DNA of 64,000 bases from an uncultured bacterium. Lineage in GTDB: Bacteria > Patescibacteriota > Gracilibacteria > Absconditabacterales > Absconditicoccaceae. The translations under genes were made by a program, and so were the position numbers. The stretch spans positions 62,001 to 126,000 of the forward strand of contig CAMJSB010000003.1 of assembly GCA_946408385.1 (NCBI GenBank). Direction: 5' to 3'. The notes under the pieces were generated by a model that was not told the DNA's origin, made no database searches, and saw nothing but the letters and a program-made list of their open reading frames with translations. This document shows, one piece after another, positions 18,190-63,112 of the stretch (its first letter is position 1; every line of letters starts with the position of its first letter).

Positions 18190-20163
18190 TTAAATATTTT
18201 TGGACATATAGGTTCATTTGAGTTCAAATCACAAACTCTTATAATACTCTCTCACTCATACTCCAGAAATTACTGAAAGCTGGTTATATCCAACTTTCCT
18301 TGAAAGTTTTTCTGCAAATGAGAGCAAACTCTTTCATAGTCATGTATGCTGAGTTCAGTGACCAGATTTATCTCAAATTTTTTGGAGCTCTCCATACACA
18401 TGAAGTTCCCTTATTATTGCTGTTCATTTTTCTAATCATTCAATTCAAGCTACGCTATCTTCATTTGGTAATAATAAACGAGTGAATCCATAGAGATATC
18501 ATAATTCATCTTCAAAAGATATGAAACATTCCTGCCCTGCTGATGATTTATATCGACGAAGAACAAGATTCAATAAATCTGATTTCTTTTTTTCTGTTCT
18601 ATTTCTCACTTCTCTAGATCTAGTATCCAAACACACAAAATTACGAAAAGACTTTAAGTCTGGCTGTGTTCAAATTATTTCTATTAAATTGTCATTCTGA
18701 GACTCCGGCGAAGAATCTTGTGTATTTTGTATGTATAACCTAAGATTCTTCACTTCATTTCATCCCATTCAAAATGACATGCCTGAAAAATATTCATCCT
18801 CACTCTTATACAATTTATAATCTCCATATAAACGACTATAAAATTTTTCTACATCAATACGACCCTTTCAATGAAAGCTATCTTTCATCTCTTTGAGTAA
18901 CCATTCATGTGCCATCTGAGAAAGATTAGTAATATTCGATCATGCAACGATTTCTGTCGCAGGAATATCACGAATCAATCTCTTTATTCTAGTATATGGT
19001 GGAATTATATTCAAAAATGTTTCACGAATCTCGGATAAAATTTGCTCCGTAGTTATCGGAGTATATTTTCATTCTTTATATAAATTGTACAACTCTGTAT
19101 TTGGAATAACCGATGTAGGATAAAATTTTATTTCATCAGGTTGAAAAGCCATATCTCAATAAATATCCTTGAAACTTTGAATATCTTTTTCAAAATCTGA
19201 ACCGTAAAGTCATGGCATCAAATGAATTGAAATCTTCAATCAATATTGACGCATAATATGAATTGCATCCTTAATCTTTTGTACATCATGTCATCTTTTA
19301 TTCAGTTTCAAAACCTCATCATTTGTAGATTGAATTCACATTTCAACTCTAGTCACTCCAAGTTCACGCCAAAATTTACAATTTGTATGATTCACTAAAT
19401 CTGGACGAGTTTCTATTGTCAGTCAGATTATTCTATTTTTAGCTGTTTCATTACGTTTTATCGCTTCTTCAAGAGAAGAAGAATATTTAACTTCATCCAA
19501 ATTTTCTATTTCAAAATGGTATTTTGAAGTCTGTCATTCTGAGGCATTAGCCGAAGACTCTTGAATATCTCACATAAGATGCTTCACTTTCGTTCAGGAT
19601 GACACACTACCACCTTGTTGAATTTTTAACTCTGAAAAAGTGTTACATGCATCATACAACTGTTTCACAAAATCTATCTTATAATCTCTAGGATAAGCAT
19701 CCCATGATCATCAAAGAATTATCATCTCAATTTTATCAGTTTGATGTCCTGTGGAAGTCAATGATTGTAAACGATTATAAGTCTGTTTCATCGGATCAAA
19801 TTGATTGAGCCACGCACGCATAGCTCCAGGTTCAGATTTTATATAGCTCTTTGGCATTCATGGGTCATTAGGACAGAATATACATTGTCCAGGACATGGC
19901 CACGGTTTAGTTAGAACTTGAACAGGTACAATTCATGATAATGAACGAATCGCTCTCTTGCGCAACATCATTTCAAAAGTCTGATTTTTCTCTAATTTTC
20001 ACTCTTTCACTGCAGCGAAATATGATTGAAGAATTTGTGATTTGGATGGTAAATCTTTCATTTTTCTCTCTTTTGCAAAAGCACGCTGCATATCCTTGAT
20101 TTCATCTGCAGTTATATCAGGGATTTTATCATATATCGCTTTTACCAGTGGAAAGAAATCCAT
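18190..20163 (-). CDS. elp3: Elp3-family tRNA U34 acetyltransferase/radical SAM enzyme, with two repeat insertions
   Basis: Elp3 combines a radical-SAM domain and a GNAT acetyltransferase domain to make carboxymethyl-type modifications at tRNA wobble uridine. The 657-residue product has the iron-sulfur cluster motif CPGQCIFC (Cys 90, 94, 97), NDPGMPKSY, and TIETRPDL. The C-terminal GNAT part contains GVGVREYYKSLGFELKGTYM. Single-protein Elp3 homologues are known in bacteria and archaea. Two palindromic repeats (18691-18778 and 19533-19603) interrupt the coding sequence in frame, adding about 30 and 24 residues (near positions 462-491 and 188-210). Both lie at probable surface loops, judging by the hydrophilic peptide they encode. 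Confidence 0.93.
18691..18778. repeat. Palindromic repeat inside elp3 (copy 1)
   Basis: GTCATTCTGAGACTCCGGCG...TTCAAAATGAC. Read on the elp3 strand it is in frame, has no stop, and encodes a segment containing QDSSPESQND. TGA and GGA supply its glycines. Confidence 0.9.
19533..19603. repeat. Palindromic repeat inside elp3 (copy 2)
   Basis: GTCATTCTGAGGCATTAGCCG...CGTTCAGGATGAC, in frame in elp3. It encodes a peptide from SSGTKVKHLMGD to QESSANASEGQ, with three glycines from TGA. Confidence 0.92.
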
Positions 20164-20231
20164 CAACCCAAAAAAATATAAACATAATTTATAATAACGA
20201 TTCTCTACTAAGTTTCAATTTAAACGTTAAA

Positions 20232-20505
20232 TCATCATTCTGAGCATAGCAAAGAATTTTGTACAAATCGTCATTCTAAGTACCGCTTAGCGGCATAAAC
20301 CGTAGCGAAGAATCCATTGGTGCTTGTCCGTCATTCTGAGGAGGAATATATGACGATGAAGAATTTTAAGTGCTTAGTTTATTTTTTACCTAGAATCCTT
20401 CAAGCTACGCTTTCAGGATGACAAAATGGATTCTTCAGCTTTTCACCACGCTAGTTTACACCGTTGAGCGTGAGTGGCAAGCTTCGTTTGCCTCTAAATG
20501 ACATC
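20232..20505. repeat. Cluster of several palindromic repeats between elp3 and mraY
   Basis: At least three family members stand side by side or nested (starts near 20232, 20266 and 20331). GAAGAATC and AGAATCC half-sites alternate up to 20505. The whole 20164-20601 gap is this cluster plus an AT-rich tail; no gene is visible. Confidence 0.75.
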
Positions 20506-20601
20506 ATAACACAAACACACTTACCTCAAATTTGTCTTGCTTTTTAAGTCGAGAAAAACACTATTAGTTCTGTAAAAAATTTTACTAGAATAATATTGAA
20601 T

Positions 20602-21651: not shown

Positions 21652-21751
21652 CTTGAAAATAAGATACCCAAAATAAACACTGTAAAAAAGAAAAGACAAA
21701 ACAAAAAATACAAAATAATCTGACTTTTATCTATGTCTTTTCTACTAAACT

Positions 21752-23365: not shown

Positions 23366-23371
23366 AATATA

Positions 23372-23399
23372 TTGATATTTAAAAATATTTTATTATAAT
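23372..23399 (+). promoter_or_regulatory. Promoter for a second candidate small RNA
   Basis: TTGATA, a 16-bp spacer and TATAAT starting 7 bp after the ligase-like gene's stop. Confidence 0.6.
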
Positions 23400-23405
23400 T
23401 TTAGT

Positions 23406-23508
23406 TAGTGTATAGAGCTAATATGCCATTTTGACTCTATATATGCCCCTCCTTCTCCATTATAAGGGGACACTGCTCTCACATTGTATCGATGTGGGAG
23501 CTTTTTTA
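23406..23508 (+). ncRNA. Candidate small RNA or leader
   Basis: About 100 nt between a good promoter and a strong terminator. It includes a CCCCT...AGGGG hairpin (23447-23470) before the terminator. The next gene begins 71 nt after the terminator, so it could be a free RNA or an attenuated leader. No known family is recognised. Confidence 0.45.
23475..23508 (+). terminator. Strong rho-independent terminator
   Basis: A GCTCTCACAT / ATGTGGGAGC stem, 10 bp with one G-U pair and a 7-nt loop, followed by a T-run. Confidence 0.85.
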
Positions 23509-23578
23509 TTTATAGAAATAACTTGCTTTTAATTATATTTATATTAATCTAATATATGTTTTATACGTATAAATAGTA

Positions 23579-23965: not shown

Positions 23966-23988
23966 TTTTATTTATTTATCAAATAGTC

Positions 23989-24429: not shown

Positions 24430-24455
24430 GATTTTATTTATTATATTATAACATA

Positions 24456-25232: not shown

Positions 25233-25311
25233 GTCATTCTGAGCGTAGCGAAGAATCCAGTTGCAGATTGTTTTCATGTTACCTAAATTTCTCACATTCG
25301 TTCAAAATGAC
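25233..25311. repeat. Palindromic repeat between gpmA and argS
   Basis: GTCATTCTGAGCGTAGCGAAG...GTTCAAAATGAC. It ends 2 bp before the argS stop codon, so it may also serve as the 3' end for both genes. Confidence 0.85.
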
Positions 25312-39285: not shown

Positions 39286-42200
39286 TTATAAAACTCTTCC
39301 GTCTTGACCTGATGGTATAAGTTGTTTCATTGAAGTTATTCATCAATATTTTTCCATATCTACTACTCCCATACTAACTCATTGAAATCTTTGAGCTGCA
39401 TCAATATTATCTGGTTGATAGTGAGAATCTAAAACAAAATTATCTTCTGTCAATTCTGGGAATTTTTGCATTAAATATTTTTTAAACTCTTCAGCTCTAG
39501 TTAACGATAAATCTTTATTATATTGTTCTCAATTTCATTTACCTTTATATGTTCGACTAGATACTCATCTTAATAATATTAATGCATTATTGCGAAGCGG
39601 TGTTTTTATATTATTTTCCTTTATCAAATCTGCGAATTTGGCATCAATCTCTGCTTTTATCGCATTTGAATTTCATCTAGAATCAAATGGCCCAGTTATA
39701 TCCGTTGACAATTCCACTCATGTTATTTTAGGATTCTTTTGTATTTTTTCAAAAGTACGTGAAAAATCATCTGGAACTTTTATTATTTTCGACTTTTTAT
39801 CTTCTTCGTCATCAAGTAATCGAGGAAGCAAAAGCAAGGGGATTAACCAGTAAGGTGACACCATTTTTCTACTAGGTAAAATATCAATAATTTCTGTGTT
39901 TTTCTCGATAATAGCTGGCAATCCTCATTTTTTTTCTATTATGGCTAATGCAGTATTTAATTTTTCCTTAACTGCTGGAGTCATCATCTTATCTATAGGA
40001 ACAACTTCTCATTTCTGTACTGGTACAACTTCTCATTTCTGTACTGGTACAACTTCTCATCAACTTGATACAGCTTCTTGCTTCAATCTCAAAACAACGG
40101 ATCAATCTTCTCTTACTATTTTTTCAACTTTTCAATTATATACTTTATTTAATGCTTGATATGATGCTTCTGCCTTTTCAGCTTTTCCTACTCAAAACTC
40201 TATTGCTCTTCATGATTCGAGTATGAACTGTTCAGCTACTTCAACATCTATTTTAGATAATTCTTCACTCCTTACTCTTTCATCTTGAATTTTTAATTTT
40301 TCTTCATATTTTGCTTTCATATCTGGATGTTTTCTAAAGAATTTATCTATACTTAATAATCTTCATTTCCTTATTTCTACATTTCATTTTGGGTATCATC
40401 ATTGTATAAACCTATTTTTTGATATTGTATCTGCAAATTGATCTCTATCTACCAATGACTTATTAAATTGTGTTTCTAAATTTTTGCTTCATTCCTTTCT
40501 TTTTTTAGCTGTCTCTCTCCTTTTTCTTGGAGCTTGAGTTATCTCTTGCTTCAATCTCAAAACAATGGATCAATCTTCTCTTACTATTTTTTCAACTTTT
40601 CAATTGTATACCTCATTTAATGCTTGATATGATGCTTCTGCTTTTTCAGCTTTTTCCACTCAAAACTCTATTGCTCTTCACTTTTCAAGTATAAATTGTT
40701 CAGCTACTTCAACATCTATTTTAGATAATTCTTCACTCCTTACTCTTTCATCTTGAATTTTTAATGCTTCTTCATATTTTGCTTTCATATCTAAATGATT
40801 TCTAAAGAATTTATCTATACTTAAAGGCTCTCCTTTCCTTATTTCTACTATTCATTTTGGATATCATCATTGTATGAATCTGTTTTTTGATATTGTATCT
40901 GCAAGCTGATCTCTATCTACCAAAGATTTCTTGAGTGAAGCATCAATTCCATTTCTTCATCATCTTCAGCAGAAACCAGATTCTAATAAAAACCTTCTAA
41001 TATTTACATCTGTGATGGTTTCTGAAAGTATTCTTACTTTTTTAAACAACTCTCCTTGTGTCAAATTTCATAATTCTCATAATTGTTTATGAGCTTTAAT
41101 TATAGTTCTTAATTGTTGATCTGTAAGATTTGGACACTCTTTCCCTGTAGCCGCCTTGTACTGTAAACTTATTGTTTCTCTTAAGAATTTTAAATTGGAA
41201 GATGTCTGTGAATTCATTATTTTGTCCATTATTTTACTATTTTCTCTAGCCATTCTTTCTGAAATATTGAACCTAGATTTCTTTCAATTAAAGTAACTTG
41301 CATCTCATTCTTTATCTGCTAACCTCTCATTTTTATATTCATTTAATACTCTATCATATTCTGCACTAATGTCTTCTCTTCCTTTTCATCTCACCACTTC
41401 TTTTCAATTCTTCTTCAATACAAAATTCTCTCCTTCCTTCTCTATCTTGTAAACATCTTTACCTATTTTTATTCATTCTGTACTTATAATACCATCAAGA
41501 AATTCGTCTTCAACCTTTGATTGTTCTATTACTTCTCTCAGCTTTACAGCTCATTTATATTCATTCAATACTCTATCATATTCTGCTCTCATATCTTCTC
41601 TTCCTTTTCATCTTGCTACTTCTTTTCAATTCTTCTTCAATACAAAATTCTCTCCTTCCTTCTCTATCTTGTAAACATTATCTCCAAGTTTTACTCCTTC
41701 TTTACTGGATGCCTTTTCAGTAAACTCAGTTCTTCACATTCACTCATCTATTCTTATAGGATTTCAATTCTTATCTAATTGATATTTCTCCTCCAATATT
41801 TTACGGATCTCTGCCTTTTTAGCTGATGAATCATGTGAATTTTTATAAATTTCTTTTCAAGATGGTGTTTTCATCCAACGATATCGCTTTCCACTTGCTT
41901 CATAATCTCTTAAATGTTGGTATTCTTGAATCAATTCTTCAGCACTCATTCTCTCATAATTTTCAGAAAGAATATTTTCATTTACATCCTTTGTGTACTT
42001 TATTTCTTTTTTTTCCATTGAATTTATTTCTTCATTTTTTATTTCTACTTCTTCTCATTTTTCCGCTAACTTTCTCTCAATGTAATTATTATATTTATCA
42101 ATTAATTTTCTATAATATTCATTAAGTCTCTTTCACCATTTATTTTTCATTTCTACTAATTTATTTTTAAGTTTCTTCAAAAATTCTTTTGGTAATTTCA

Positions 42201-45200
42201 TATTCGGTCTTAATGAAAGATTTTTAAATCGACGGTGAACTCACCTAATAAATACTCATGTCTCAAACATTTTTTGTGTCACCCAGTCTAATTTTACATT
42301 ATTGTAATTTTCAGTCCTTGCATTAGAAAATGCTTTTTCAAGATTTCTTTCTACATCTTCTGGTTTATCAGCTCTATCATTTCATTCATCTCTTCTTTCT
42401 CCTGTCTCTGCTCTTCTTTCTCCTGTCTCTGCTCTTCTCTCTCCTGTCTCTGCTCTTCTCTCTCCTGTCTCTGTTCTTCTTTCTCCTGTCTCTGCTCTTC
42501 TCTCTCCTGTCTCTGTTCTTCTTTCTCCCGTCTCTGTTCTTCTTTCTCCCGTCTCTGTTCTTCTTTCTCCCGTCTCTGTTCTCGATGCTGTTCTAGGACT
42601 ATTTGAAGCTACTTTTGACCAATCATACTTTGGAGATTCTCATGCATTTACCCTTCATAAATCTTCCATAGCTTCTTGAAATCTTTTATCACTTCATCCT
42701 GGTTTGTCTGGATGCGTTGATTTTGCTATTTCTCTTTTTGCTGCCTTATAATCAATTTTTCAATTAGCAAGATCATTAAATATATCTTGTACAGTTCTTT
42801 GTCCTCCTGTTTCAGCCCCTGTTTCAGCCCTTGTTTCAGCTCCTGTCTTTCATCTACTATCTAAAATACTTGTATTGTTTGGTAAATCTTTTAATGGAAC
42901 TACCATTCATGTTTTGGTATTACGTACAGCTGGATTTTTTCGATTTTCCGTTCTACAGATTTCAAGTGTTCAATCGTTTAGTTTTTGCTCATATTTTTGC
43001 CAAATTCAAGGTTTTACTGCTCTAAAAGCTATAATCATTCATATTATTTGACATAGTTCTTGTTGTGTTGGAGCTACTAGTGAATGTTCTGTATGTACTT
43101 CTCATGTTTCAGGATCAATTACATCATGTCAAAATGTTAAATTTATTACTTGTTCTGCTGCAAGCATTGATCACATCTCTGTTACTAATTGTGTAGTACA
43201 TCTTGCTGGATCTTGTATGTGTCGTTTTTTGAGTCATTCCATTAAATTTACGGATAATTTACTTTTTCATCATACTCTCATTAACGATTGAGTAAGCTTT
43301 CCTGCAATAGATAATGCTCCCAAAAATGCTGCAGTTTGAACATTTTCTTTAGCTATTGGATTCAAATTTAAATTATCTAGTGATGTTCCTTTAACAGCCG
43401 CATCAACTGTAGTTTTTGCTGCATTAAATCCAGTACCTTCAATCAATAAAGCTGTTGGTATTGATGTTCATAGTGCTACTTTCCCTGCGGTACTTGCTAC
43501 TTTAAATACCCTCTTTACTTGTTTGAATGTTTTTGCAGCTTTAAAAACTTTTAATAATCTAACTGATTTTGATATATTGTTTGCTAATTTTACCCATCTT
43601 GCAGATCTTGCTATCAAGCTTACACCACGTAGAGCTCATGCTACTGCAAGTGTTCATACTCATGCGGTACAAACCCCAACAACAACCATGATTACTATTT
43701 CAGCTAAAATTTCTCATGCAATCTTTGCACTTTCATCACTAAGATTCCAGAATCAATATCATTTTATATCATTGTAAATATCAGCATTTTTTCATGTAAT
43801 TCATCATCATAATTCACCTAAAGCTGACATCAGTCATCATTTAACAATTTGTCATAAATCTCCATATTTTAATTGAATATTTGTTGCTTCAATTGTTTTT
43901 TTATAGTACTCTCTCGCCTTTTCTGGATTTTCGTCTAAATATACAAGAGCCTGTAATACCTGCATTTCAGCCTCTGTTTTATTATCCTTCTGTTCTAATC
44001 TCAATCTTTCTTTATGTCCTTTTGCCATCTCTCATTCTACAGACAAAGAAAGATTATTGACTTGTGTATCTATTGAAACTAGTTGTTCCCTCAAACCATC
44101 CATACATTTCCTTACCTCATCATCTTCTTCTTTTCGATTGCTTGGGAGCCATCATCTTCCTACAAATAATGTAATTAGTGAATCTGTTCATTTCTGTGCT
44201 GAAGCATAAGTGTTATCGTATCGTCATTTAACTTTTTGATTAATGGATCAATCTTGGTTGTAAATCGACATTGAAGTTCGATTCTTAATTTTATCTATGC
44301 ATTTTTGTATTTCTGGATTTTTTACTCATATATCCTCATTTCATTCTATTTCTTCTGCTAAGAAACTAGTTTCTGTTTTATCAAACAAACGACCGAATCA
44401 TCATAAACTTCTAATTGCTGCGATTTGTTGATCTTTATTTCAAAAAAATACATTATTTAATTGTGTATATTGATCACCTTTCGCCGATATCCTTTTTATA
44501 GATTTTCGCTTTGTCCGTATTGGTTCTATAATATTTTTTATTATTCCACTTCTTCATATATTGTCTGTATCTTCTATAGAAGCTCTTCCATTTCTTAATA
44601 ATTTTTTTATTTCTACTAAGTTTTTATCATCGTTATCTAACCATGAATCTCATTCACTTTCTCTATAATTTTCTATCATAGTTTCTAGTAATCACATTCC
44701 ATACAATATTTGCTGCTTGGCCTCTCAACCAATTATAATTTCTTTTGAATCTGCTCAAACTTTCACCTTTTCTGTCTTTGTGAGTGGATCTAATTCTTTT
44801 AGCTTTTCTTTTACTCTAGCTATTAGATAATCTTTATAATCTCATTCATTATTATCTATAAAATCATATAATTTTTTTCATATAAATTTCTCATCTTTTC
44901 GAACTGTCCAACTTACCTCAGAGTCTCCAGCATTTAAATGTAATTCCATATGTCATGATCACCGAAATATTTTAGTAACACTTTCAGGATCAATTTCATA
45001 TCATAATTTTTTTGCATTCTTTAAAAGCTCTATTATCCTTTGTTCTGTTTTTTGACATAAATCTACTTGTTCTCTCGTTGTTAGTTCCTTTTTTGCAGAT
45101 GGTATAGCTTTTTGCATGGATAAAGTCAACTTACTGAGTTTATCGGCATTATATACTGTTTCTGATCCTAAATTTTCCTTTTCTTTCTTTTCTTGGACGT

Positions 45201-45945
45201 ACGCTCTCCACTTTCTTTCTCATGCAGGTATAAGTTTTACTCATTCTCGAATACGTGCTCTAACCTGAAGAGGTTGTCATTCTGTATCTCTCAGAACATA
45301 TGTTTTCAGCTTTGAATCATATGTTAACAAACATGTATATCATCATAATACTGAATGCATCCATGACTTTATGTTCTGATTTTTACATTGACTATAATCT
45401 ATTGTATATGTTGTATTTGGTGTTTTAAACAATCATTCTAATGCTCTATGTATTTTTACTGGATTCGACTCTTTAGTAAAAACAATATTTCACGTTTGCT
45501 TATGTATATCATCTCCTCATTCCATAGTAAACATTGGTGTCTTTGTCTTTGATACTTCTGCAGATTTTTTAACCAGATCTCTACTATCTTGAGTCGACCT
45601 GTTTCTCGCCAATCTTTTTAAAGTTTCATTTTCTGCGTTGTCTATTAGATTTACTATATCATTCACTAGATTTTTCCCATTTTCGAGTATTTTATTTGAA
45701 ATTAAGCTATCTACCCCCTTTTTAAGAGATGCTTGTAATTTTCTTAAAGGTTCCAATGCTCGTGGACCATAATTCATAGTTTTATCTCATTTTATTGCTT
45801 GAATCAATCATTCACACACTATTATTCATGCTTTTGCCTTATCTTTTTCACTCTCAAGTGCTTTTCCCATCCATCATTTTAATTGATTTACTGTTTGATT
45901 TTCGTATTTGAAATTCTTTAGGGATAAAATTGGAGGATTGGCCAT
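39286..45945 (-). CDS. Giant 2219-residue envelope protein with J-domain motif and OmpA-like C-terminus
   Basis: One uninterrupted frame of 2219 codons; I checked every codon for TAA/TAG. No overall homologue is recognised. In order: a helical N-terminal region (1-720) rich in Lys/Glu; a hydrophobic hairpin (about 738-775, VIMVVVGVCTAGVGTLAVAG) followed by basic helices; then a J-domain-like segment with the HPD triad at residue 1078 (IAKSTHPDKPGGSDKRF), which in DnaJ activates Hsp70. Nine copies of a TETGERR-type heptad follow (about 1118-1180), then long charged coiled coil. That coil holds a 222-bp-offset repeat (about 1418-1530) and a near-identical 468-bp-offset duplication (about 1670-1955). 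Next are VPVQKGEV octads, a hydrophobic stretch (YWLIPLLLLPRLL), and an OmpA-like end with NKDLSLTRAEEFKKYL (2139-2153). A scaffold or secretion role is inference only. Confidence 0.85.
40020..40060. repeat. 24-bp tandem repeat (VPVQKGEV octads)
   Basis: Two full and one partial copies of a 24-bp unit, coding strand minus, inside the giant gene. Confidence 0.8.
40081..40930. repeat. Near-identical 468-bp-offset duplication in the giant gene
   Basis: The segments from 40081 and from 40549 (each about 380 bp) align at high identity. Most differences are single substitutions, and the reading frame is preserved. The encoded unit is a helical segment with VEVAEQFI and IREDGS-like motifs. Confidence 0.85.
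41341..41690. repeat. Direct repeat with 222-bp offset in the giant gene
   Basis: The units at 41341-41460 and 41563-41690 are nearly identical, each encoding a Glu/Lys-rich segment with EDISAEYDRVLNEY. Confidence 0.8.
42403..42594. repeat. 21-bp tandem repeat, nine copies (TETGERR)
   Basis: Nine consecutive 21-bp units encode (T/A)-E-T-G-E-R-R. Gly is always GGA, never TGA, unlike the flanks. The copies differ at synonymous or Ala/Thr positions only, which suggests recent slippage expansion. Confidence 0.9.
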
Positions 45946-45964
45946 CTTTATATTTATTAATGAA

Positions 45965-46405
45965 TTAAATATTCTTCAAACTTTCATTTAGTAAATTTTC
46001 TGCACTCATGAGATTCTTCAAATCATTCAAACTTGAGACACTATTTTTTTGTGTATCAAGTTTATCTTTTATCTCTAATACTTTTTCGATATCAATTTCT
46101 ATGTTCTTCTCGCATGTTAAAACTTTTTTATGAATTCTATCCCAAATTTTTTCTCTCTCTGTAGCATCTTTTTCAAGTAATAATCCAATTAATAAAAATG
46201 TTGATTCTTCATCTAGATCCTGGATAGAAAACCTTTTATCATCCTCTAAATGATTATCTAGAATCTTTTGCACTTCTGCTTTCACTTCTGATAAATGCTC
46301 TGGTAACATTGACTCATAATATTTAAATAAAACTACTTCATTATATTCCACACCATCAATTTTTGCAAAAAATATGAAACATTTTTGCGCATTTAAACTA
46401 GACAA
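45965..46405 (-). CDS. Small helical partner gene upstream of the giant protein
   Basis: A 146-residue protein on the same strand, ending 19 bp before the start of the giant gene and probably co-transcribed with it. It is acidic and helical (KYYESMLPEHLSEVKAEVQKILDNHLEDDKRFSI; a coiled-coil stretch IDIEKVLEIKDKLDTQ), with no signal, membrane segment or known domain. The frame opens at a TTG (46405). No in-frame ATG lies near it, so the true start is uncertain. It contains no TGA codon and only two glycines, both GGN. Confidence 0.6.
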   Translation of the reverse strand: MSSLNAQKCFIFFAKIDGVEYNEVVLFKYYESMLPEHLSEVKAEVQKILDNHLEDDKRFSIQDLDEESTFLLIGLLLEKDATEREKIWDRIHKKVLTCEKNIEIDIEKVLEIKDKLDTQKNSVSSLNDLKNLMSAENLLNESLKNI

Positions 46406-46507: not shown

Positions 46508-47653
46508 ATGAAAACATTAGCAATAGAAACCAGCTGTGATGATACATCTCTTGCGATTGTAAATAATGACGATTGAATTTTTAATGTAGAGAAAATTGTG
46601 ATGTATTCCCAGATTCAGCAGCATATTCCATATTGATGAGTTTTACCTGAGGTTGCATCACGTTTGCATAGTGAAAAAATTGTGGCATTGATACAAGAAA
46701 TTTGACTTGAAGATATCGAAAAAGTAGATTTTATTTCGGTTACAACAAAACCTGGATTGCCTTGATCTTTGGTGGTTGGTCGTACAGCGGCTCATTTATT
46801 GGCTGAATATTATCATAAACCGTTGGTTGAAGTGAATCATATTCATGGTCATATTTTTTCTATATTATTGGAAAGAAAGATTGAAGATTTGCAATTACCA
46901 CTTGTTATTTTGACGGCATCGTGAGGTCATAATGATTTATATGTTGTAACAATGGAAAAGTCATCCTGAACGAAGTGAAGGATCTTAGGTGATATGCAAG
47001 ATTCTTCGGCTAAAGCCTCAGAATGACAAATTCCCCCTATCTCCCTTGCCAAAGGGGGGCAAACTGAACAAGTTTGACCATTTTATGTGACTAAGATTTG
47101 ATATACTTTAGATGATGCTGCATGAGAGGCCTTTGATAAAGTGTCTAAAATGCTTGGTGGACCATATCCTTGAGGACCATGGATTTCAGCTCAAGCTTTA
47201 AAGTGAAAACATAATGAAAATTTTGGATTTAAAAGAATATTTTTACCTCTGAAAGATGATCAGATTTTTGAGTTTAGTTTTTCATGAATGAAATCGCAGG
47301 TATTACAGTTACTTTCGCATATAGAGAAAGAATGAAAAACTCTGACTGAACAAGATGTTTGTGATATTGCTTATGAATTTCAGGAGGCTACGGTTGAAAC
47401 TTTGTGAAAGCGTTTGATAAAAGCTGCTAAGATGTATGGGGCTAGAACTATTGCTATTGCTTGATGAGTATCTGCGAATAAGAGATTGGCTGAATATGTC
47501 GAAAATGAGGCAAAGGAATGGAATAATTCGGATTATGCAGAGAAAAAATGATTGCATGTAGATTTTGTTCATCCAGTTAAGAATCTGTATTCCACTGATA
47601 ATTGAGCTATGATTTGAGTTGTGGGGTTATTGATGAACAAACAAAGAAAATAA
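46508..47653 (+). CDS. tsaD: tRNA N6-threonylcarbamoyladenosine transferase TsaD, with in-frame repeat insertion
   Basis: TsaD transfers the threonylcarbamoyl group to A37 of ANN-decoding tRNAs with TsaB and TsaE. The 381-residue product has ETSCDDTSLAIV (N-terminal actin-like fold), the metal-binding VNHIHGHI, the nucleotide-binding [33 protein letters not shown], and the C-terminal AGGVSANKRL. About 36 residues (151-186) between [15 protein letters not shown] and FYVTKIGYTLDDA are not family sequence. They are translated from a palindromic repeat (46960-47027) plus a second CCCCC/GGGGG hairpin repeat. The frame stays open because TGA is Gly. Confidence 0.94.
46960..47064. repeat. Palindromic repeat plus hairpin repeat inside tsaD
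   Basis: GTCATCCTGAACG...CTCAGAATGAC (to 47027), then CCCCCTATCTCCCTTGCC-AAAGGGGGG. In frame, it encodes [23 protein letters not shown] and then PPISLAKGGQ. Confidence 0.92.
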
Positions 47654-48105: not shown

Positions 48106-48138
48106 AGAGCTGGTGGTTTATCCTCCAGCTTTTTTATT
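48106..48138. terminator. Terminator between the 104-residue gene and uvrA
   Basis: An AGCTGGTGG / CCTCCAGCT stem followed by a T-run, in line with the plus-strand small gene; it also overlaps the end of uvrA. Confidence 0.75.
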
Positions 48139-51100
48139 TATTTTCAATTAATTTACCATTTTCTAAGTGGATGATATGATCTGCAAAACGAAGAATCGTT
48201 TGGTCATGTTCAATCATCAAAATAGTATCTCACCTTTCTAAGAAAGATTTTAATACTCAAAGTAATCTAGAAATGTCATCTGGATGTAATCAAACTGTTG
48301 GTTCATCTAGAAAATATACACAGTGTCATCTGTAATCTTTCAGTAAATGTCTAACTAATTTTAGTCTTTGAGATTCCCCTCATGAAAGCATATGAGCAGA
48401 TTGTCACATCTTTAGGTATCATAATCATATATCACACATTAATTGTAATTCACGTGTAATATTATCCATTTCATGGAAAAATTCTAAGGCATCAGAAATG
48501 TACATATCGAGGACATCTGCGATAGTTTTTCATCTCCATTTGATTCATAGCACTTCAGGCTTATATCTTTTTCATTTACATAATTCACATGGCACATAAG
48601 TATCTGGAAGGAATTGAAGTTCTATTTTTTTGTATCCATATCCGTTACATGCTGGACAGGCTCATTTATCTGAGTTGAAACTGAAATAACTTGAGTGAAA
48701 TCATAAATATTTTGCATCGCTTGTGTTTGCGAATACGTCACGAATTCTATCGAAAGTTCAGACAAATGTTGAAGGACAACTTCTAGGAGTTTTTCAAATA
48801 CTAGACTGATCTACATATATTGTATTTTTGATTTCTTCATATCATTCAATTTTATCAACTGCTAAGTCCTTATAAAATTCTTGTAAAGCCATATTCTCGT
48901 AATGAGCATATTCTTCTGCACGCATAATCGGTGCCGCTAAGATATCTTCCCAAGAATATCATTTCTTGAGCATTTGAAGCCTAATATAAGACTGAACAAA
49001 CTTTTCTTTATCATTTAAAAAACGATAGAGTGTTGTATACATTAAGGTTGTTTTTCATGCTCCAGATCATCATGTAATCACAGTAAAACTTCATAAATTA
49101 AATTTAACATCAATATTTTGGAGATTAAACTTTGAAGCTTTACGGATTTTTACTCGTTTATTTGTAGGCTTATGATTAAATTCCATTTCAACTTTTTTCT
49201 TTCAGTTCATATACTGCGCAGTCAAACAATCAGATTTTAAAAATTCTGAATATGGTCACGAAAAAATCAATTCTCAACCAAAATCCCCTGCTCCAGGTCA
49301 GATTTCTACAATCCAGTCTGAAGCTTCTATAAATTCTTCGTTGTGTTCTACCACCATGATGGTATTTCACATGTCTTTTAGTTTACGAATCGCTTGGATT
49401 GTCCTTTCGATTTCTTTTACATCTAATCAAATAGTTGGTTCGTCAAGAACATACACGATTCCAGTTAGTTTATTTCATAGTTGTTTTGCAAGACGTAAAC
49501 GCTGAATTTCTCATCATGATAGTGTATCAATTTGTCTGTTGGTTGTTAGATATCCGAGTCACAAATCTTCAATAGTCTGAACTCTATCAAGCAATGGATT
49601 TGTAATACGATGAATTAGTAATTCAGGTTGAGTTGTCGAATTTATATAGAGCTGCAATAATTCACGCATTTCTTGTAGAGGTATTTTTTGTAGATCCCAG
49701 ATGTTGATTTTTTCTAATCAATCATCTTCAGGTTTTGTAAATGGTAAATCTTTCTGTTGTAAAAATGATTCTCAATAATGTGGCAATTTTTTGATATGTG
49801 CAACTGCTTTTTTTGGAAAAGTAAGAAACACGTGAAGCGATTCCTTTTTTATTTTAGATCAGAAACATTCTGGACATGGTTTCATATCTAGCATTGCTTG
49901 AAAATCGACAGTGAGCATTCATTTTTCGAATTGATCTTTAATTACGTCTTCCATTCATACATATTTGAAACTAGCCCATTTTCATTTTACTGGGATTCTA
50001 CTTCAGATTGGTAGACGTAATTCTTCATTATCTCAGTAGACAATTACATGCAAAAACCAATCTGGTTGATCTTTCCAGACTTTTTCTAAATCTTGGTCAT
50101 ATTTTTCACATAATTTACGGAGGATTGCTTGTCAGATATTGGAATCTCTCCATGGAAGAATTGCATCTTTTAGAGGAGAATTAGGCTCGATGATTTTATC
50201 AAAATCTACCTGAAGAATTTCTCCAAGTCCATGACAGCATTCACAGGCTCATTCTCAGCGGTTTGGAGAGAAGTGTTGAGTGGTGAATTCTGGATATGTG
50301 ATGTTACAGTTTGGACAAAACATTTTGTCCGTAAATCGCTGGATTTCATTTCAGTCATTCTGAACCGAAGGTGAAGAATCTTGTGTGTTCGTTTTTTTAT
50401 TTTTTCACTTAAGATCCTTCGCTGACGCTCAGGATGACAATGTGGAAATTTCGATATTTGAAAGTCAGGTATTTTCCACTTTTGAAACTGATGCAGATTC
50501 TCATGATTTATCCATCACATAAACTCAGAATTTTTGAGCTTCTCAGAGGATTTTGATGATATCTTCTTTTAGCCTTGGTAATTTTTCTTCATCAACGCTG
50601 ATACGGTCATATATTCAGAAGATTTTAAGAGGAAAATATTCGTCTTTTACCACAGGATCTTCGAGGTAAAAATATTCGATAGGTACAGAAAAAGCTGTTT
50701 TTTCTTTCTGATTCTTCTTTTCTTTTAGAGATAACTCTTGGTCTTCAATATTTTTTGAGAGTGATATTTTAGAATCTTTTTCTATAGGAGCAGAAAGTAG
50801 TAAATATCTAGTGAATCATGATCATTTTTCGATTTTTGATCTGTTGTTTTTTACGAATTTCTGCAAGTCTGCTTTAGTATTTAGTCTTCCTGATTCTTTG
50901 AGTAAATATAATTTTTTTCACATGTATTTCTCTTTGATTTCTCACATAATCTGGTCTACATTTTTTGGTTTGATGTGAGCTCCACAATTGTAGCAATAAC
51001 TTTCTCATACTTTAGCAAAAAGAAGTCTAGTGTAATCATCAATTTCAGTCAAAGTTCAAACTGTTGAACGGCTATTTCATCCACGTTTGTTTTGTTCAAT

Positions 51101-51397
51101 TGCAATTGCTGGAGAAAGTCATGCACAGTATGCAATATCTGGTCTTTCTCAGAGATTAAAAAATTGACGTAAATAACTAGAAAGCGATTCAATATAACGG
51201 AATTGCCCTTCTTTGTAAATAGTTTCAAAAGCTAGTGATGATTTTCCAGATCCGGAAACTCACGTGAAAGTGATAATCTGATTTTTTGGCAAAACTAGGT
51301 CGATATTTTTCAGATTGTTGGTTTTGATTCATTCTAATACTATTACATCAGATTGATTTGGAGAAAGTGTAGTATTTGTGGTCTTTTTTGTAGCCAT
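48134..51397 (-). CDS. uvrA: Excinuclease ABC subunit A, with in-frame repeat insertion
   Basis: UvrA recognises bulky DNA lesions with UvrB and is an ABC-type dimeric ATPase. The 1087-residue product has the first Walker [17 protein letters not shown] (near residue 45), then the zinc-finger Cys pair YCYNCGAH. A second ATP-binding half lies nearer the C-terminus. The end is [20 protein letters not shown]...NGKL, with the usual Q/EHD. A palindromic repeat at 50354-50438 adds about 29 residues (320-348) in frame between ordinary UvrA segments. Length is somewhat above the usual 940-970 residues, partly from this insertion. Confidence 0.95.
50354..50438. repeat. Palindromic repeat inside uvrA
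   Basis: GTCATTCTGAACCGAAGG...CGCTCAGGATGAC, in frame. It encodes SSGASAKDLKGKNKK... ending [11 protein letters not shown], closely like the second elp3 insertion. Confidence 0.92.
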
Positions 51398-51813: not shown

Positions 51814-51915
51814 GTCATCCTGAACGAATACCTGCCCAGCTAAGCTGGGTGAAAAGGATCTTAGGTGCAACGCATAAGATTCTTCGTCGTCATTATATTC
51901 CTCCTCAGAATGACA
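51814..51915. repeat. Palindromic repeat upstream of the CHAP-like gene
   Basis: GTCATCCTGAACG...CTCCTCAGAATGAC with the internal hairpin GCCCAGCTAAGCTGGG. The remaining 51747-52141 gap is AT-rich, with a TTGACA-N16-TAAAAT promoter candidate at 52079-52106. Confidence 0.85.
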
Positions 51916-52141: not shown

Positions 52142-52900
52142 ATGAAAGAAACACTACAAAGCAAATGAATCCATGAATCACACGAAAACATCCTCGAAAA
52201 AATAAAAGATTCATTAAAAGAACAAACATGATTAAAAGAACTAGAAAAAGAATCATGGATTAAAATTTTTAAGGATTGGATAAAAAATCTTTTTTGAATA
52301 ACTAATAGCAATAAACAAGAAGATGACAAAAAAGAGGATAATAAACCAACAGCTTCGATTCCGGATAAACAGGAATATAATCCCAACAAGCCAGATGCTG
52401 GTTTATCGAATGCTAATAATAATTTAGATACTTTTACAAATGCTCATCTGAGTGAATCTATTGTAAAAAAAGCTCGAGACTATATAGCAAACTGATGAAC
52501 ATTCCATTCCAATAGTAAATGAACAATCACTTGGGGGCGAGGTAAGTATAAGCATGTATGTTCTACATGATCATATAATGTGTTGTGGAAATTGTGACTT
52601 CCGAAAGTATCTAATTCTACTGAATGTGACCTAAATTGAAAAATTTTACCAAAAATGGGGTTGGAATATATTTGAGAAGTAGATCCAGATAACCCTGGTA
52701 AAAGTTGATATAAACCACAAAATGGAGATACAGCCGTATGGCCGAGATTTAATAATGGTCGTAAAATGACTCAGCATCAGGCTACGTTTATTAACTGACA
52801 TTGGGTGTCAGATACTATACAGAGTAAGATGTCATGTTATGGTAGTAAAAATGAACCAATGGTAAAAGTGTATCGTTATACATGAAAAGTTTCTACTTAG
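52142..52900 (+). CDS. CHAP-like cysteine peptidase/amidase domain protein
   Basis: A 252-residue protein. Residues 1-110 are a charged, low-complexity region without signal peptide. The C-terminal domain has the order of NlpC/CHAP-type peptidoglycan hydrolases. HVCSTGSYNVLWKLGLP supplies the candidate nucleophile Cys (near residue 140). PQNGDTAVWPRF is the family's G-D-x-x-x-W strand. HQATFINGHWVSDTIQS supplies the candidate His (near residue 216) and the gW.sD motif. It could cleave the peptide stem or cross-bridge of the cell's own or a host's peptidoglycan. The lack of a signal peptide means export would need another route, or that it acts in the cytoplasm. It is convergent and overlapping by a few bases with the DUF192 gene. 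Confidence 0.75.
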
Positions 52901-53361
52901 TAATTTATTAATTCACAAATATCTCAAACGTGAAGCAATCATTTTTCACTGGTGAGTCATTGATTAATTTCTAAGACATACTGAGCTTCAGATTTTGGTT
53001 TATAAGATGGACATTCTTCTGTTTTGCAAGGCTCCATTTGGATAATATCTACGATTTTTAAATCTGAATCTAATCGAATTCAAGCTAAAGGAATCAAAGT
53101 GTTTTTCATCCAGAATGAGTAAGTTCATACTTGGTCGAAAATGAAAAGCATTCAATCTTCATCGGATAGAGATTCTCTGTACATTAGTCATAATTGACGA
53201 GATTCATTAGTATCTGCGATTTCTATGTTGAAACAAGTGCTGTTACAACAGATTTTTGGATCTTCGCTTTCTCATGCTTCGTATTTGAACACGAGAAAAG
53301 ATGTGATTAAAAGCAGGATGAATATTGTTATTCAGATTGTGATTTTAGTTGATGCTTTCAT
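52897..53361 (-). CDS. DUF192 family membrane-anchored protein
   Basis: A 154-residue protein with an N-terminal membrane segment (ITIFILLLITSFLVF) and a DUF192 domain: GLMYRESLSDEDGMLFIFDQV, SFWMKNTLIPLAGIRLDSDLKIVDI, a Cys-containing loop EPCKTEECPSYKPKSEAQYVLEIN and the C-terminal LLHVGDIC. The family is widespread with uncertain function. This copy has the family's usual fWMknt and pC...CpsY signatures, with Gly encoded by TGA where the family has invariant glycine. Its stop codon overlaps that of the convergent CHAP-like gene. Confidence 0.88.
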
Positions 53362-53385
53362 GTTTGATTTTCTAATGTAAAGTGT

Positions 53386-53467
53386 GCCATTCTGAGTGTT
53401 AATGAAGAATCTAGATAACATGAAGCTAACTGGATTCTTCGGCTCGTTTCACTCGCCTCTGAATGAC
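53386..53467. repeat. Palindromic repeat between the DUF192 and pseudouridine synthase genes
   Basis: GCCATTCTGAGTGTTAATG...CCTCTGAATGAC, an intergenic family member. It ends 3 bp before the pseudouridine synthase stop. Confidence 0.8.
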
Positions 53468-58627: not shown

Positions 58628-61313
58628 TATCTTGTAATAGTTTTTTGATCTGATTTATTTCAGATCTTTTTTTTGTTAAAGAAACTGCCTTTAGCAGATA
58701 TGCCTTAGCTTTTTCTAAATCTCACTGCTGCACATAGTAATCTCATAGAGCTTGATATAAGTATCACTGTGGATATTCAGCTACTAAATTTAATAAATAC
58801 TGTTCTATTCAGTCGAACTGTCAAAGTGCGATATTTCTACCTATTGTTCAATATGTACATACTGCTCTTTCTTCGTTTGATAGAGTCATCGAACATACAC
58901 GAAGCATTTTATTCGCTAGCTCTATATCGAATGCATATATTTGGAATTGTTTTCATTCTGCATATGGATGGAAGAAAGCTTCATAAAAATATGTATAAAA
59001 ATCTGATGCAACCAAGTTTTCATATCATAATAATTTATTTCGAGAGGCTATCAGTTTAGTTCTTTGATCTAATTTAATATAATCATTTATTAGATATCTT
59101 TGAGCATCCAAACGTAACTTATCATCTTGTATTCTAGAGAGCATCACTACAGATTGCTCATATTTTTCATCTCGATAGGACGCTACTCATACCAAGAAAC
59201 GATATTTTTCTACATTATTAGGATCTAATTCCATTAGCTTTTTAAGATATTCAATTGATGAATCTCGAGAATTTGTAAGAAAGTTTGCATAAGCAAGGAC
59301 TTGATAAGGCAATATATAATTTGCATTTTTCTGAAGTGAATATAGTGCCAATACTTTTGCAGGTTGGAATAATCATTGATTGAATAATTCAAGAGAAACT
59401 AATGTATCAAAATAATAATCTGGCATTCACATCTGTTTAGCTATTTGATTTTTATATCATTGGATTTTTAGTGAAAAAGTCTGATTTTTTTCTGATGTAA
59501 ATCATGAAGAAATTGCAAAGAAGTTATCGTAATTTCTACTCATTAATGCGATTACTCATAAATATCGATTTTTATCTTCTTCAGAAATTCTATTTTCAGC
59601 ACTATATTCTTGAACTAATGTTGTTAAATTTTCATTTATCGTGGATGAACCAAGAGAGAATGAATTGAAAGCAACACGTAAACTTAGTGAAGGATCCAGC
59701 TGATTACGATATATTTCTGGGAGATTTTCAATAAATTTCTTTGCCTTTACGAATTGATATTCATTTAGATAAGTTTCGACAATTAGGTTCATTACTTCTA
59801 CATCCTTTGTCTTCTCAAAAACTTTTTTTAAAAATTCATCATTTTCACTTTCCAGTGTATCTATGTCTATTTCTTCATTTTCCAATAATTTCTCAAACAT
59901 CGGATCCGAAAGTCCTTGTTGTTCAGTTTCTCTATCCTCTAAATTTTCAACCAATACGTTAGTTATCTTTTCTCTTCCCTTTTTCAGACTTACGATATTT
60001 TTGGTTGGTTGATATTTATATATCCTTATCAAAGTTACTTCTGGAATTTTTCATTCACTAAGGCTTACTGAGTTGGTTGATATTTCAGGTTTTTCTATTG
60101 CTATAGTTTTTTCCTCTGGCTCTCTTCACATATTCATATTGATGGAATAACTATCAGGTTCGTGTTTTTCTATTTCATATGTAATTTCTTGTTTTCATTC
60201 ATCTGTTTTAACAAAGTTTCATGTCTCTATTTCATTTATTTCTACAGTTTGAATATAATTTGATCATGTAACTACTCCTGTATTATTATTTTTCTCGAAG
60301 TCTACAGCTGTTTTTTCTTCTGTTTTTCAAATGGATACTGAATTTTCATCATAGATCGAAACTATATTTTCATCCGACTCTCCTCTACTATTTTCTATTG
60401 CACTAGATATAGTATCATCACCCAATGAAACAATAGTTGGCTTATTATTTTTCATTTTTGCTAGATATTCTTCATCAATACCCGCACTATTACGCAAATT
60501 CAGTGGAGCTTTAAATCCAGAATAGAGTTTTATTGCCCTTGAATTCTTATAAAGGGGTTCTATCTCCTTACCTTTTTCAAGATTTATGGTCAGATTTCTT
60601 TTTACTGGATATCTTTTTATATGTACTAATGGTATTTCTGCTCACATCTTCAGATTTAGAGTACTTGTACTATACTCGTATTCTTTTACTGGATAATTAG
60701 TTGTCTCTTTTTCTGCTTCCTTTTTTTCTTCTTTTCATACTTCTTTTTCTATTTCCTTTTCTACTTCCTTTTCTACTTCCTTTTTAGCTGTTTCTCATGT
60801 ATTAGACTTAAAATTCTTATCAATTCAAGTATTATACTTTTCATCATTATCGTTGGTTCACGTATTCTGTTTTATTTTATTTTTTGATATTCATGTCTGA
60901 TTTTGTATCTCTAGTCAATCGAAGACACTAGATATGCTATCACTATCATCTAAGCTAAGAAAACTAGGTCATGTATAAACCTTTTCTTGGTTCTTTAGTT
61001 TTTCTTTCTCTAATTTTTTTTCTCTCTCGACTTTGGCTAAATATTTAGGATCTATTCAATCACTCTTACGCATCTCTTTTGGAGCTTCAAATTCATAATT
61101 AAGATGTATTAGATCTGAATTCTTATAAACAGCATTTAAATTAACCATTGGTCTTGATGTTTCACTCTTCATAGGATTAGTATTCTTTTCCGCTTTATCG
61201 AAAACTATTTGATTGTTTTCAAATCAAATTTTGTATCACTTTTCATCACAAATAATAAAAAATACGATTCAAAAGATAAATATCATTCATAGTAATTTCC
61301 GAAATCTACGCAT
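58620..61313 (-). CDS. Membrane-anchored TPR-repeat protein
   Basis: An 897-residue protein. The N-terminus has a single hydrophobic segment (KLLGMIFIFGIVFFIICDEK, about residues 5-25). It is followed by 350 residues of low-complexity acidic/Lys-rich sequence with EKEVEKEIEKE runs, then TPR-like repeats from about 480 to the end (EYLKKLMELDPNNVEKYRFLVG; ALYSLQKNANYILPYQVLAYANFL; QGDLEKAKAYLLKAVSL). TPR arrays bind partner proteins. The topology suggests a scaffold outside the membrane. It converges with the PG-binding pair, with stop codons overlapping by 8 bp. A possible partner relation with that operon is positional inference only. Confidence 0.75.
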
Positions 61314-61390
61314 TATTTGTGATGTTTTTATTTATATATAAACTTAATATTTATTTTTAGTAATATCAACTCCAAATACAACAATTTAAA

Positions 61391-63112
61391 CTATTCTGAA
61401 TCTTCTTCAAATAAATCTTTCAGAATATCTTTTTCATCTTTTTTGGGCTCTTTATCTGAAAGATATGTTTCCAAATATGGTTTTTTTTTCAATAATTTAT
61501 CTACACTTGCTAGTAAATGTGAATAATCTCCAGACTTTGGATAGACATAAGTAATCGGATCTAATAATCATGTTGGACGAATGATTTGTTCTACGACTTC
61601 ATCTGATAAATTCAATTCATACTCTGCCGGAGTGGCAGATAGGAATATTGATTTCGCTCAGGTTTTTATTTTTGATGCTAAATTAGCACGTTGATTTTCT
61701 GCACGAGCTTCTTTATTTATTAACGATTCAGAATGTCATTCTGAGGCTTTAGCCGAAGAATCTTTCGCGTTTTTGTCATTCTGAGGAGCTTGCGACGAAG
61801 AATCTTGTGAATTTCACCTAAGATCCTTTTCACCCAGTTTAGCTGGGCAGGTATTCGTTCAGGATGACGCACTATTCTCAAGTACTTTCAAGTGGGTAGT
61901 AGAAACTAAATCCAAATTATCAGTAGCTTGATCTAGCTTAATTTCATCTAACGATTTCCATCAAAGAGTAGCTTCTAATTCCTCGAAACGTAATGGACGA
62001 TGATCGATAGCGGATGGAAGACGGAATCAATATTTAATCAGATTATTTTTTCTGGCTCTATCTCACTGTGACATCGCATTTAATTGAGGAATTGTCATAT
62101 GAGATTCATCTATAATGAGCAAGAAATCTTTAGGAAAATAATCGAAAATCGTATTTGGAGCCTCACCTGGCAAACGTTTATCAAAATATAATGAATAATT
62201 CTCGATACCATTCACAAATCAAGTTTCACGAATCATACGTAAATCGTATTCTACACGTTTTTTGATTCTCTCTGCCTCCACTAACATTCAGGCTTTTTCA
62301 AATTCTTTTATTCTGAGTTCTTTTTCTAAATCAATTTGCTGAAGTATAGTTTCTAAGTCATTTGTATCCTGTAAATATTGAGTAGCAGGCCAAAGAATAA
62401 CCTGATTAGCCTGAGATTTTAGTTCAAATGTAACTGAATCACGAATTTCAATCCTCTCAATCACATCTTCATCAAAGAAGCAACGATAAACAGATTTTTC
62501 AGTAGAAGAATAAACATCCAATCTCTCTCATTGCAATTCGAACATTCAGGCTTCAATTTTTCCATGAACTGGTTTATATTGCATATGTAATAGTTGATGC
62601 TTTATTTCTTTAAAATCATATGACTGCCCCACTTTGAGCTGAAGCATATTTTCCTGGAAGAATCTACTCTGTCATAAACCATAGAGAGAAGATGCCGAAG
62701 CGACTACAATTACATCATCACGAGAAAGCAGACTCGCCATTGTAGCTAGTCTATACATCTCAATTTCATCGTTAATTGTAGCTTCTTTCTCTATATATGT
62801 TCATGAAGATGGAAGATATGATTCTGGTTGATAATAATCAAAATATGATACAAAATAATGCACTGCATTATTTGGAAAGAATGCTTTAAATTCAGTAGAA
62901 AGCTGAGCTGCTAATGTTTTATTGTGTGAAATTACGAGAGTAGGTCTCTGAACTTTTTGGATAATATTAGCCATGGTAAAAGTCTTTCATGTTCATGTAG
63001 CTCAGAGTAGTGTGATATTTTTCTTTCAATTTTCAAAAGCTTGAACAATCTGATTGATTGCTTTTGGTTGGTCTCATGCTGGTTCGTAATCTGATTTCAA
63101 TTGGAATGGCAT
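61391..63112 (-). CDS. uvrB: Excinuclease ABC subunit B, apparently lacking its C-terminal helicase half
   Basis: UvrB carries the lesion-verification helicase of nucleotide-excision repair. The 573-residue product has Walker A GATGTGKT (37-44), the beta-hairpin [18 protein letters not shown] and [13 protein letters not shown], motif [16 protein letters not shown] (near residue 333) and motif [16 protein letters not shown]. It then continues through [17 protein letters not shown] and ends soon after with [11 protein letters not shown]. Helicase motifs IV-VI and the UVR domain, about 200 residues in ordinary UvrB, are absent. A palindromic repeat (61735-61868, about 45 residues) is inserted in frame before the missing part. 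It may be inactive or an unusual short form. It lies upstream of the TPR gene on the same strand. Confidence 0.92.
61735..61868. repeat. Palindromic repeat inside uvrB
   Basis: Two overlapping family members (starts near 61735 and 61788), in frame, with internal halves CACCCAGTTTAGCTGGG. They encode [18 protein letters not shown]...[22 protein letters not shown]. Confidence 0.9.

Follow-up and report, generated by a model that had tools for sequence, protein, structure and literature searches.

Palindromic Inserts within elp3, tsaD, uvrA and uvrB

The 64-kb stretch of DNA analyzed here (the window) lies on contig 3 of the draft genome of an uncultured bacterium of the Absconditicoccaceae (G000; 1.09 Mb, 22 contigs, 88.55% complete), and four of its conserved genes carry in-frame copies of a palindromic repeat that we call family A. 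Other genomes are designated below by G numbers and loci by L numbers. Open reading frames (ORFs) were taken as stop-free frames without curation, and genetic code table 25, in which UGA is read as Gly, was assumed for G000, G002, G003 and G035. According to NCBIfam, the four hosts are Elp3, which contains two copies, TsaD, UvrA and UvrB. The elp3 gene (18190-20166, minus strand; 658 amino acids; TIGR01211, E 1.2e-143) carries, on its own strand, site 1 at 19533-19603 (amino acids ~188-212, read as VSSGTKVKHLMGDIQESSANASEGQ) and site 2 at 18691-18778 (amino acids ~463-492, read as SFGMGGNEVKNLRLYIQNTQDSSPESQND). In tsaD (46508-47653, plus strand; 381 amino acids), which matched TIGR03723 with E 1.3e-86 (290.6 bits, cut-off 296.1) and TIGR00329 above its cut-off, the family A element (46960-47027, plus strand; amino acids ~151-174) is followed without a gap by a second, unrelated palindrome at ~47028-47062 on the same strand. 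The latter, of the CCCCC...GGGGG type, is in frame and reads IPPISLAKGG; it belongs to what we call family B, recognized by eye as CCTCC or CCCCC hairpins. The uvrA gene (48134-51397, minus strand; 1087 amino acids; TIGR00630, E 3.1e-255) has its copy at 50354-50438 on the minus strand (amino acids ~320-348), and uvrB (61391-63112, minus strand; 573 amino acids; TIGR00631, E 1.7e-172) at 61735-61868, also on the minus strand (amino acids ~415-460).

These five copies had been reported, with the same borders, in a first-pass annotation made from the sequence, and all of them were indeed open in frame under table 25 in one common phase. They contain 13 in-frame TGA codons (two in elp3 site 2 and in uvrA, three in elp3 site 1, tsaD and uvrB), and since every insert has such codons, each host ORF would end inside its insert if UGA were a stop. 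The description of the copies as single palindromes had to be revised, because four of them are inverted pairs of two hairpin units and the uvrB copy, listed as one repeat, is one unit plus an inverted pair. The palindromes are 88 (elp3 site 2), 71 (elp3 site 1), 68 (tsaD), 85 (uvrA) and 134 (uvrB) nucleotides long, and none of these lengths is a multiple of three; therefore, the exact inserted segment should differ from the palindrome by a few bases.

The claim that the remainder of each gene is intact held for Elp3, TsaD and UvrA, but not for UvrB, whose 573 amino acids compare with a 658-position model. This UvrB is without much of the C-terminal part, and its score (575 bits) stays below the TIGR00631 cut-off of 750, as would be expected of a short form. 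Open frames of 479-580 amino acids are usual for UvrB in the same family, frames of ~660-710 amino acids being found in most other families of the class, and 2/22 of the UvrB frames listed were shorter than 479-580 amino acids, one of them at a contig edge. The short form is thus a lineage trait. Elsewhere in G000, in-frame copies were found in ligA, rimO, truD, mnmA, a gene for a nop2/RsmB-like methylase and a ComEC-like gene. Four further host ORFs that were scanned gave one thermonuclease-like domain, two surface-protein repeats and one frame without a family match; two more candidate ORFs, L185 and L199 (the latter nearly a duplicate of L186), stood outside the family scan.

Structure and Abundance of the Family A Unit

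The family A unit consists of GTCATTCTGAG, a variable stem-loop and CGAAGAATC, and it occurs mostly in inverted pairs. Exact units numbered 48 across the G000 genome (none with the reversed pattern as control), and a fuzzy search of the window gave 27 hits, four of which were taken as chance matches, compared with 1 in the reversed sequence. The existence of a repeat family was confirmed on a wider scale: it is genome-wide in G000, and the exact pattern was present in 20 of 59 genomes from the same genus, family and class, most of them drafts (G002 is 99% complete). Within the genus, and counting G000, 7/8 genomes had the pattern, G007 having none. No Rfam family matched at gathering scores over the window, nor up to E 1 at 61650-61950.

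Each hairpin is built from a YGTC tag and an outer stem (ATTCT/AGAAT), which is separated by two opposed G.A mismatches from a variable short inner stem and a loop. Although neither the sequence nor the length of the inner part is constant, its self-complementarity is kept, the inner stem averaging 1.93 bp in G000 (70 distinct inner sequences) versus 0.55 bp after shuffling, and 1.87, 2.0 and 1.92 bp in G003, G002 and G035, respectively, versus ~0.5 bp. The outer arms mostly covary: 67/95 units in G000 had ATTCT/AGAAT and 13/95 had ATCCT/AGGAT; among the remaining 15/95, eight had ATTCA/AGAAT, which breaks one pair. Close-neighbor units stood in +- order in 31/39 cases in G000, 21/23 in G035, 15/15 in G063, 27/49 in G002 and 11/19 in G003. 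In G002, two loci, L235 (C11:25973-26583) and L236 (C11:34320-34732), are tandem arrays of family A with a period of ~96-97 nucleotides.

Insertion Sites and Comparison with Relatives

In alignments with orthologues, all from the same class, the five inserts lie in stretches of the host proteins that vary in length. When compared with solved homologues, the match of TsaD stopped at amino acids 147-148 and resumed at 194-197 in two alignments, with 4-8 residues of the solved protein in between; in the solved Elp3 5l7j, sites 1 and 2 correspond to three and 14 residues, respectively, and for UvrA the alignment does not cover the stretch with the insert.

The inserts are not constant among same-genus genomes, to which the DNA-level comparison of the sites was confined. 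The uvrB gene of G003 is without the insert, its protein being 95% and 90% identical on the two sides, and that of G004 has a shorter family A insert. G003, G004 and G006 have neither the family A insert nor the second palindrome (~47028-47062) in tsaD, and elp3 site 1 is free of the insert in G004 and G006. The uvrA loop is not empty in the relatives, because family B palindromes occupy it in G003 and G006 and a further insert in G004. These same-genus orthologues agree, for uvrB, tsaD and elp3 site 1, with the earlier proposal that the copies are insertions rather than domains. According to that proposal, it would be contradicted if homologues from unrelated phyla had this insert in the corresponding position, or if the assembly were chimeric. 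The first was not seen among the same-class orthologues aligned, in which different inserts do share places, and the second is unlikely because different in-frame inserts occupy the same loop in independent genomes.

When 37 pairs or clusters of G000 were compared with each other, many matched over their full length, spacer included, between unrelated loci, and the matches ended at or near the element borders. Thus, elp3 site 1 and the tsaD copy were 89% identical over 72 nucleotides including the spacer, with the alignment ending where the elements end, the truD and mnmA copies were 94% identical over 69 nucleotides including the spacer, and 76 nucleotides of the uvrB insert matched a copy near uvrA (51814-51889) with 93% complementarity. 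Because several inserts are missing from close relatives, and entire pairs recur with their spacers at unrelated loci, family A elements are mobile insertions in length-variable loops.

Occurrence outside the Lineage

An exact 31-mer of family A was found in 12 stretches of named genome records, namely three from Obscuribacterales, one from Chloroflexi, one from Helicobacter (G064), one from Patescibacteria (UBA3291) and six labeled "uncultured bacterium"; the UBA3291 stretch and these six come from G003, G004, G006 and G035. The pattern counts were 144 for Obscuribacterales, 48 for Chloroflexi and 131 for Helicobacter, to be read with the proviso that most records with the 31-mer are metagenome bins, in which single contigs may be misbinned. 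A phage collection gave one short match, in a Helicobacter prophage gene, and a plasmid collection gave no match to family A. In G064, many units lie in long ORFs (L324-L343) that elsewhere in their length match conserved families, among them NuoG, RecJ, Mfd, IspDF, TrpB and a TonB receptor.

Reading Phase of the In-gene Copies

The in-gene copies are read mainly in the phase GAT TCT TC, that is, as Asp-Ser-Ser (DSS). In ORFs of at least 250 amino acids, the DSS/SSG phase was used by 28/31 units in G000 (a count that keeps at least one chance match), 10/10 in G003, 10/12 in G035 and 15/24 in G002. When the units with the DSS end were counted by gene, the DSS phase was the main one in 14/14 genes of G000, 4/4 of G003, 8/8 of G035, 6/9 of G002 and 27/27 of G064, in total 59/62 genes over five genomes, which are not fully independent since some inherited copies seem to be common to G000 and G003. 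Openness of the frame does not explain this bias, because intergenic elements give 0.35 for the DSS phase and single units of G000 differ little in openness between the three phases (93, 84 and 85 of 95; in G064, 101, 50 and 101 of 135). No other phase is as hydrophilic as the DSS phase, which has a mean grand average of hydropathy of -0.86 in genes, and selection for a harmless peptide may be what lies behind the bias. We regard the DSS phase bias in genes over five genomes as new.

UGA as Gly and the TGA-bearing Arm

On the gene strand, the first of the two arms carries TGA in the matching phase. In the UGA=Gly genomes this first arm was in the TGA-bearing phase in 19/25 cases (G000, 9/12; G003, 3/3; G035, 0/2; G002, 7/8), whereas in the UGA-stop Helicobacter G064 it was so in 0/18, and 17/18 were in the RHSE phase. 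The contrast is partly forced by the ORF definition, because a unit with an in-frame TGA cannot lie within a standard-code ORF, and it shows what each code permits. A published Helicobacter prophage gene reads a unit as RHYEALAEES, in the same phase. In-frame TGA codons were present in 18/29 in-gene units of G000, 6/10 of G003, 7/11 of G035 and 14/22 of G002, and the DSS phase would be open in 54% of intergenic elements with UGA as Gly and in 18% with UGA as stop. The unlocking of the TGA-bearing phase of the other arm by UGA=Gly is, in our reading, also new.

A comparison of unit lengths was dropped as evidence of selection. DSS-end units with a length of 1 modulo 3 made up 0/71 in G064 versus 30/54 in the UGA=Gly genomes, a difference confounded by the inability of in-frame-TGA units to sit in ORFs under the standard code; within the UGA=Gly genomes this length class did not differ between in-gene (30/54) and intergenic (84/173) units.

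A mobile repeat common to UGA=Gly and UGA-stop bacteria constitutes a natural experiment on the effects of a code change, in which one arm is read mainly in the same phase under both codes and the TGA-bearing phase of the other arm is used only where UGA is a sense codon.

DUF559 Inserts and Family B Palindromes in the Same Loops

DUF559 (Vsr-like nuclease) domains were detected in 25/41 genomes, and 28 of the 30 loci retrieved were read. Ten ORFs were picked from these for in-frame DUF559 extensions, and each gave a match of E 1e-30 or lower to a conserved family, namely RimO (L159, G002), Elp3 (L160, G018), MnmA (L163, G048; L164, G029; L172, G031; L183, G009), MurC (L165, G001), LeuS (L169, G032), Fmt (L173, G027) and RibE (L184, G051), and the family match was split into two stretches in the Elp3 and the four MnmA ORFs. 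The elp3 gene of G006 (L129/L170) and leuS of G002 (L180) are two further in-frame cases. Family B palindromes, reading PPxPPLxKGG or similar, flank most of these inserts on one or both sides, as judged by eye and uncounted.

Several of the loops are the ones used by family A. Directly after GHYARI, the mnmA loop of G000 is occupied by family A, and that of four other genomes by a DUF559 insert. Of the two elp3 sites with family A elements in G000, the linker at site 2 contains a DUF559 nuclease insert in G006 and the region of site 1 one in G018, and in rimO the two kinds of insert fall in the same variable stretch. That unrelated elements, even in-frame DUF559 genes, occupy the same protein loops looks new, and in the literature on DUF559 and palindromic or insertion elements, judged by title or abstract, we found nothing on in-frame DUF559 inserts, which could pass for plain domain fusions. 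The nearest precedent found is the ShiLan element (PMC11855218), which like the DUF559 inserts lies in frame within a conserved gene and is neither an intein nor an intron; unlike them, it is a phage element with its HNH gene in another frame, and its abstract names no palindrome flanks.

A broader picture may tentatively be drawn, in which permissive loops in genes for tRNA modification, repair and synthetases would be a landing ground for several unrelated palindromic elements. Family B would come with its own DUF559 endonuclease, inserted in frame, translated, non-splicing and homing-like, and family A would be smaller, with an in-gene load that depends on the code, UGA=Gly opening a frame that others must avoid. 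The inserts point to a concrete, testable set of insertion-tolerant sites in core enzymes.

The only DUF559 match in G000 itself (L175, C1:197306-197611) holds a TAA and looks degraded. In the window, two identical 48-nucleotide CCTCC...GGAGG palindromes of the family B type lie outside genes at 5831-5878 and 9591-9638.

Proposed Explanation and Its Alternatives

We consider it highly probable, from the sequence comparisons above, that family A is a non-autonomous mobile palindrome whose retained in-gene copies are read through as extra loops thanks to UGA=Gly. The mobile form in G000 would be mainly the inverted pair with its spacer, and an enzyme acting in trans would spread the copies. Most copies landing in genes would be lost, the survivors being those in length-variable loops that are read in the phase turning the inward arm into D-S-S and giving a hydrophilic peptide; the other arm, with TGA in the matching phase, would be read as SSG or SFG because UGA is Gly. 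The ribosome would thus pass through the whole pair, and the host enzyme would presumably work on with a floppy extra loop.

Several observations weigh against this explanation or limit its reach. Pairs are not the usual arrangement in every genome, since close neighbors in the Helicobacter genome G064 formed inverted pairs in only 10/54 cases, and living in genes is not general for family A, since 0/46 units examined in the Chloroflexi record lay in ORFs of at least 250 amino acids. G002 fits less well with regard to phase (6/9 genes, 15/24 units); its nine off-phase units are spread over three loci, and a single tandem array, perhaps not a gene, accounts for six of the nine. No target-site duplication of the kind that marks a MITE was visible at the same-genus junctions, themselves too diverged to decide the point, and a single-sequence structure model of TsaD had a pLDDT of 34 and was left unused. 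Finally, no mobilizing enzyme was found in searches that covered Y1_Tnp and DUF559.

As to the mover, a RAYT (REP-associated tyrosine transposase)/Y1 enzyme, of the kind that moves GTAG-type repetitive extragenic palindromic (REP) sequences, is an unlikely candidate. The Y1_Tnp profile matched in some genomes bearing family A (G003, G005, G009 and G020), and in 7/21 genomes of a first search, but none of these was G000, G001, G002, G004, G006 or G008; a second search gave 1/6 (G020 only), with none in G031, G035 or the Obscuribacterales, Chloroflexi and Helicobacter genomes. The profile was thus missing from the majority of the family A-rich genomes searched, which are mostly drafts.

A role of the DUF559 nuclease as mover of family A, like the one it may have for the family B palindromes, seems quite improbable. 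DUF559 matches were present in 14/17 genomes with at least one exact family A unit versus 11/24 without (41 genomes, relatedness uncorrected), the in-frame DUF559 copies share loops with family A elements, and in elp3 of G006 a decamer, GTCATTTCGA, two bases off the family A tag, precedes the insert and may be a family A remnant. However, none of the 28 DUF559 loci read had an exact GTCATTCTGA within 450 bases, the decamers found there that were one or two bases off were taken as chance except perhaps that of G006, and there was no DUF559 match in G064, with its 131 units, or in G008, with 16.

We give little credence to the idea that the inserts have been recruited and now tune their hosts, for example through mutator effects via UvrA and UvrB, which Di Nocera and colleagues put forward as speculation for REP-tagged repair genes (PMC3733652). 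The hosts are often repair and tRNA-modification genes, both here and in that article, but at a given loop close relatives have different inserts or none, which suits neutrality better.

Removal of the inserts at the RNA level, or bypass of the hairpin by the ribosome, so that the proteins would be without them, is very improbable: the strong hairpins and the bare palindrome lengths, not multiples of three, would suit it, but frames open through all five inserts and a strong preference for one hydrophilic phase would be needless if the inserts were removed or skipped. That the inserts are ordinary lineage-specific loop expansions and not mobile DNA is scarcely credible, for although the insert loops vary in length across the whole family, near-identical pairs with their spacers occur at unrelated genic and intergenic loci, the exact 31-mer is found in records from other phyla, and relatives either are without the inserts or have different palindromes.

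Relationship to Known Palindromic Elements

The reading of family A as a mobile palindrome translated within genes has its closest parallels in two published groups of repeats. The resemblance to the Rickettsia palindromic elements (RPEs) noted in the first-pass annotation was borne out, in that in-frame copies of one family lie in unrelated genes. RPEs (Ogata 2000, 2002) are described as protein-coding, in frame and present in many unrelated genes, and similar protein evolution in other prokaryotes was called conceivable (PMC10969869); they belong to other bacteria with another code, and the likeness is by description. Family A would extend protein-coding palindromes to a UGA=Gly lineage.

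The second group is that of the CGTC-tagged REPs, with TGTC variants, which occur as dimers without a dedicated transposase (Di Nocera, De Gregorio and Rocco 2013; PMC3733652), their mover being unknown according to these authors. RPE-4 and RPE-6 are CGTC elements, and in-gene REPs include a CGTC element in uvrB of Rickettsia conorii and, in uvrA, REPs of Thioalkalivibrio and of Opitutus, those of the latter belonging to the GTAG class (PMC3733652). Family A has in common with the CGTC-tagged REPs, as described there, the C/TGTC tag, A-T first pairs, dimers and in-gene copies; the base before GTC was T in 73 and C in 14 of 95 units in G000, C in 77 and T in 47 of 135 in G064, and T in 40 and C in 6 of 46 in G063. 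The plain stem of 8-9 bp with a loop of 4-5 given for CGTC-tagged REPs is replaced by 5 bp, two G.A mismatches and a variable inner stem. Since the tag agrees and the stem does not, family A would be a variant of the CGTC-tagged REPs and not a member. The tail, mostly CCA in those REPs, is so only in part of family A, the two bases after GAATC being C in 67 and A in 71 of 72 units in G002 (CCA), and T in 56 or C in 37 and T in 54 or A in 39 of 95 units in G000. Those REPs are said to be mostly HH dimers, which, if HH is assumed to be +-, may be set beside the +- proportions given above, ranging from 15/15 in G063 to 10/54 in G064. Family A, unlike those REPs, resides in a lineage that reads UGA as Gly and in which TGA-bearing frames are used. 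With REPIN/RAYT systems it has in common non-autonomous inverted hairpin pairs that recur as pairs; unlike it, these have a GTAG tag and a RAYT gene, and Y1_Tnp gave no match in the drafts G000 and G002.

The novelty claimed in the first-pass annotation stands for the lineage and not for the kind of element: no description of such repeats in this lineage was found, judging from titles and abstracts, and a search for the literal string GTCATTCTGAG gave only unrelated papers by title among those listed, but in-gene REPs were published in 2013 (PMC3733652).

Other Repeats in the Window

Further family A elements of the window, all from the fuzzy unit search, are intergenic: a cluster of three units (5649-5752), an inverted pair (10294-10371) and single units at 5895-5924 (minus strand), 18110-18134, 20330-20365 and 25233-25257 (all plus strand). 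An inverted pair found in the same search (53386-53467) lies at the edge of the ORF at 52897-53421. A pair between genes at 51814-51914, whose first bases overlap a 107-amino acid ORF, is a near copy of the uvrB insert. In addition, a 21-nucleotide tandem array was observed at 42390-42582, within the 2233-amino acid ORF at 39286-45987.

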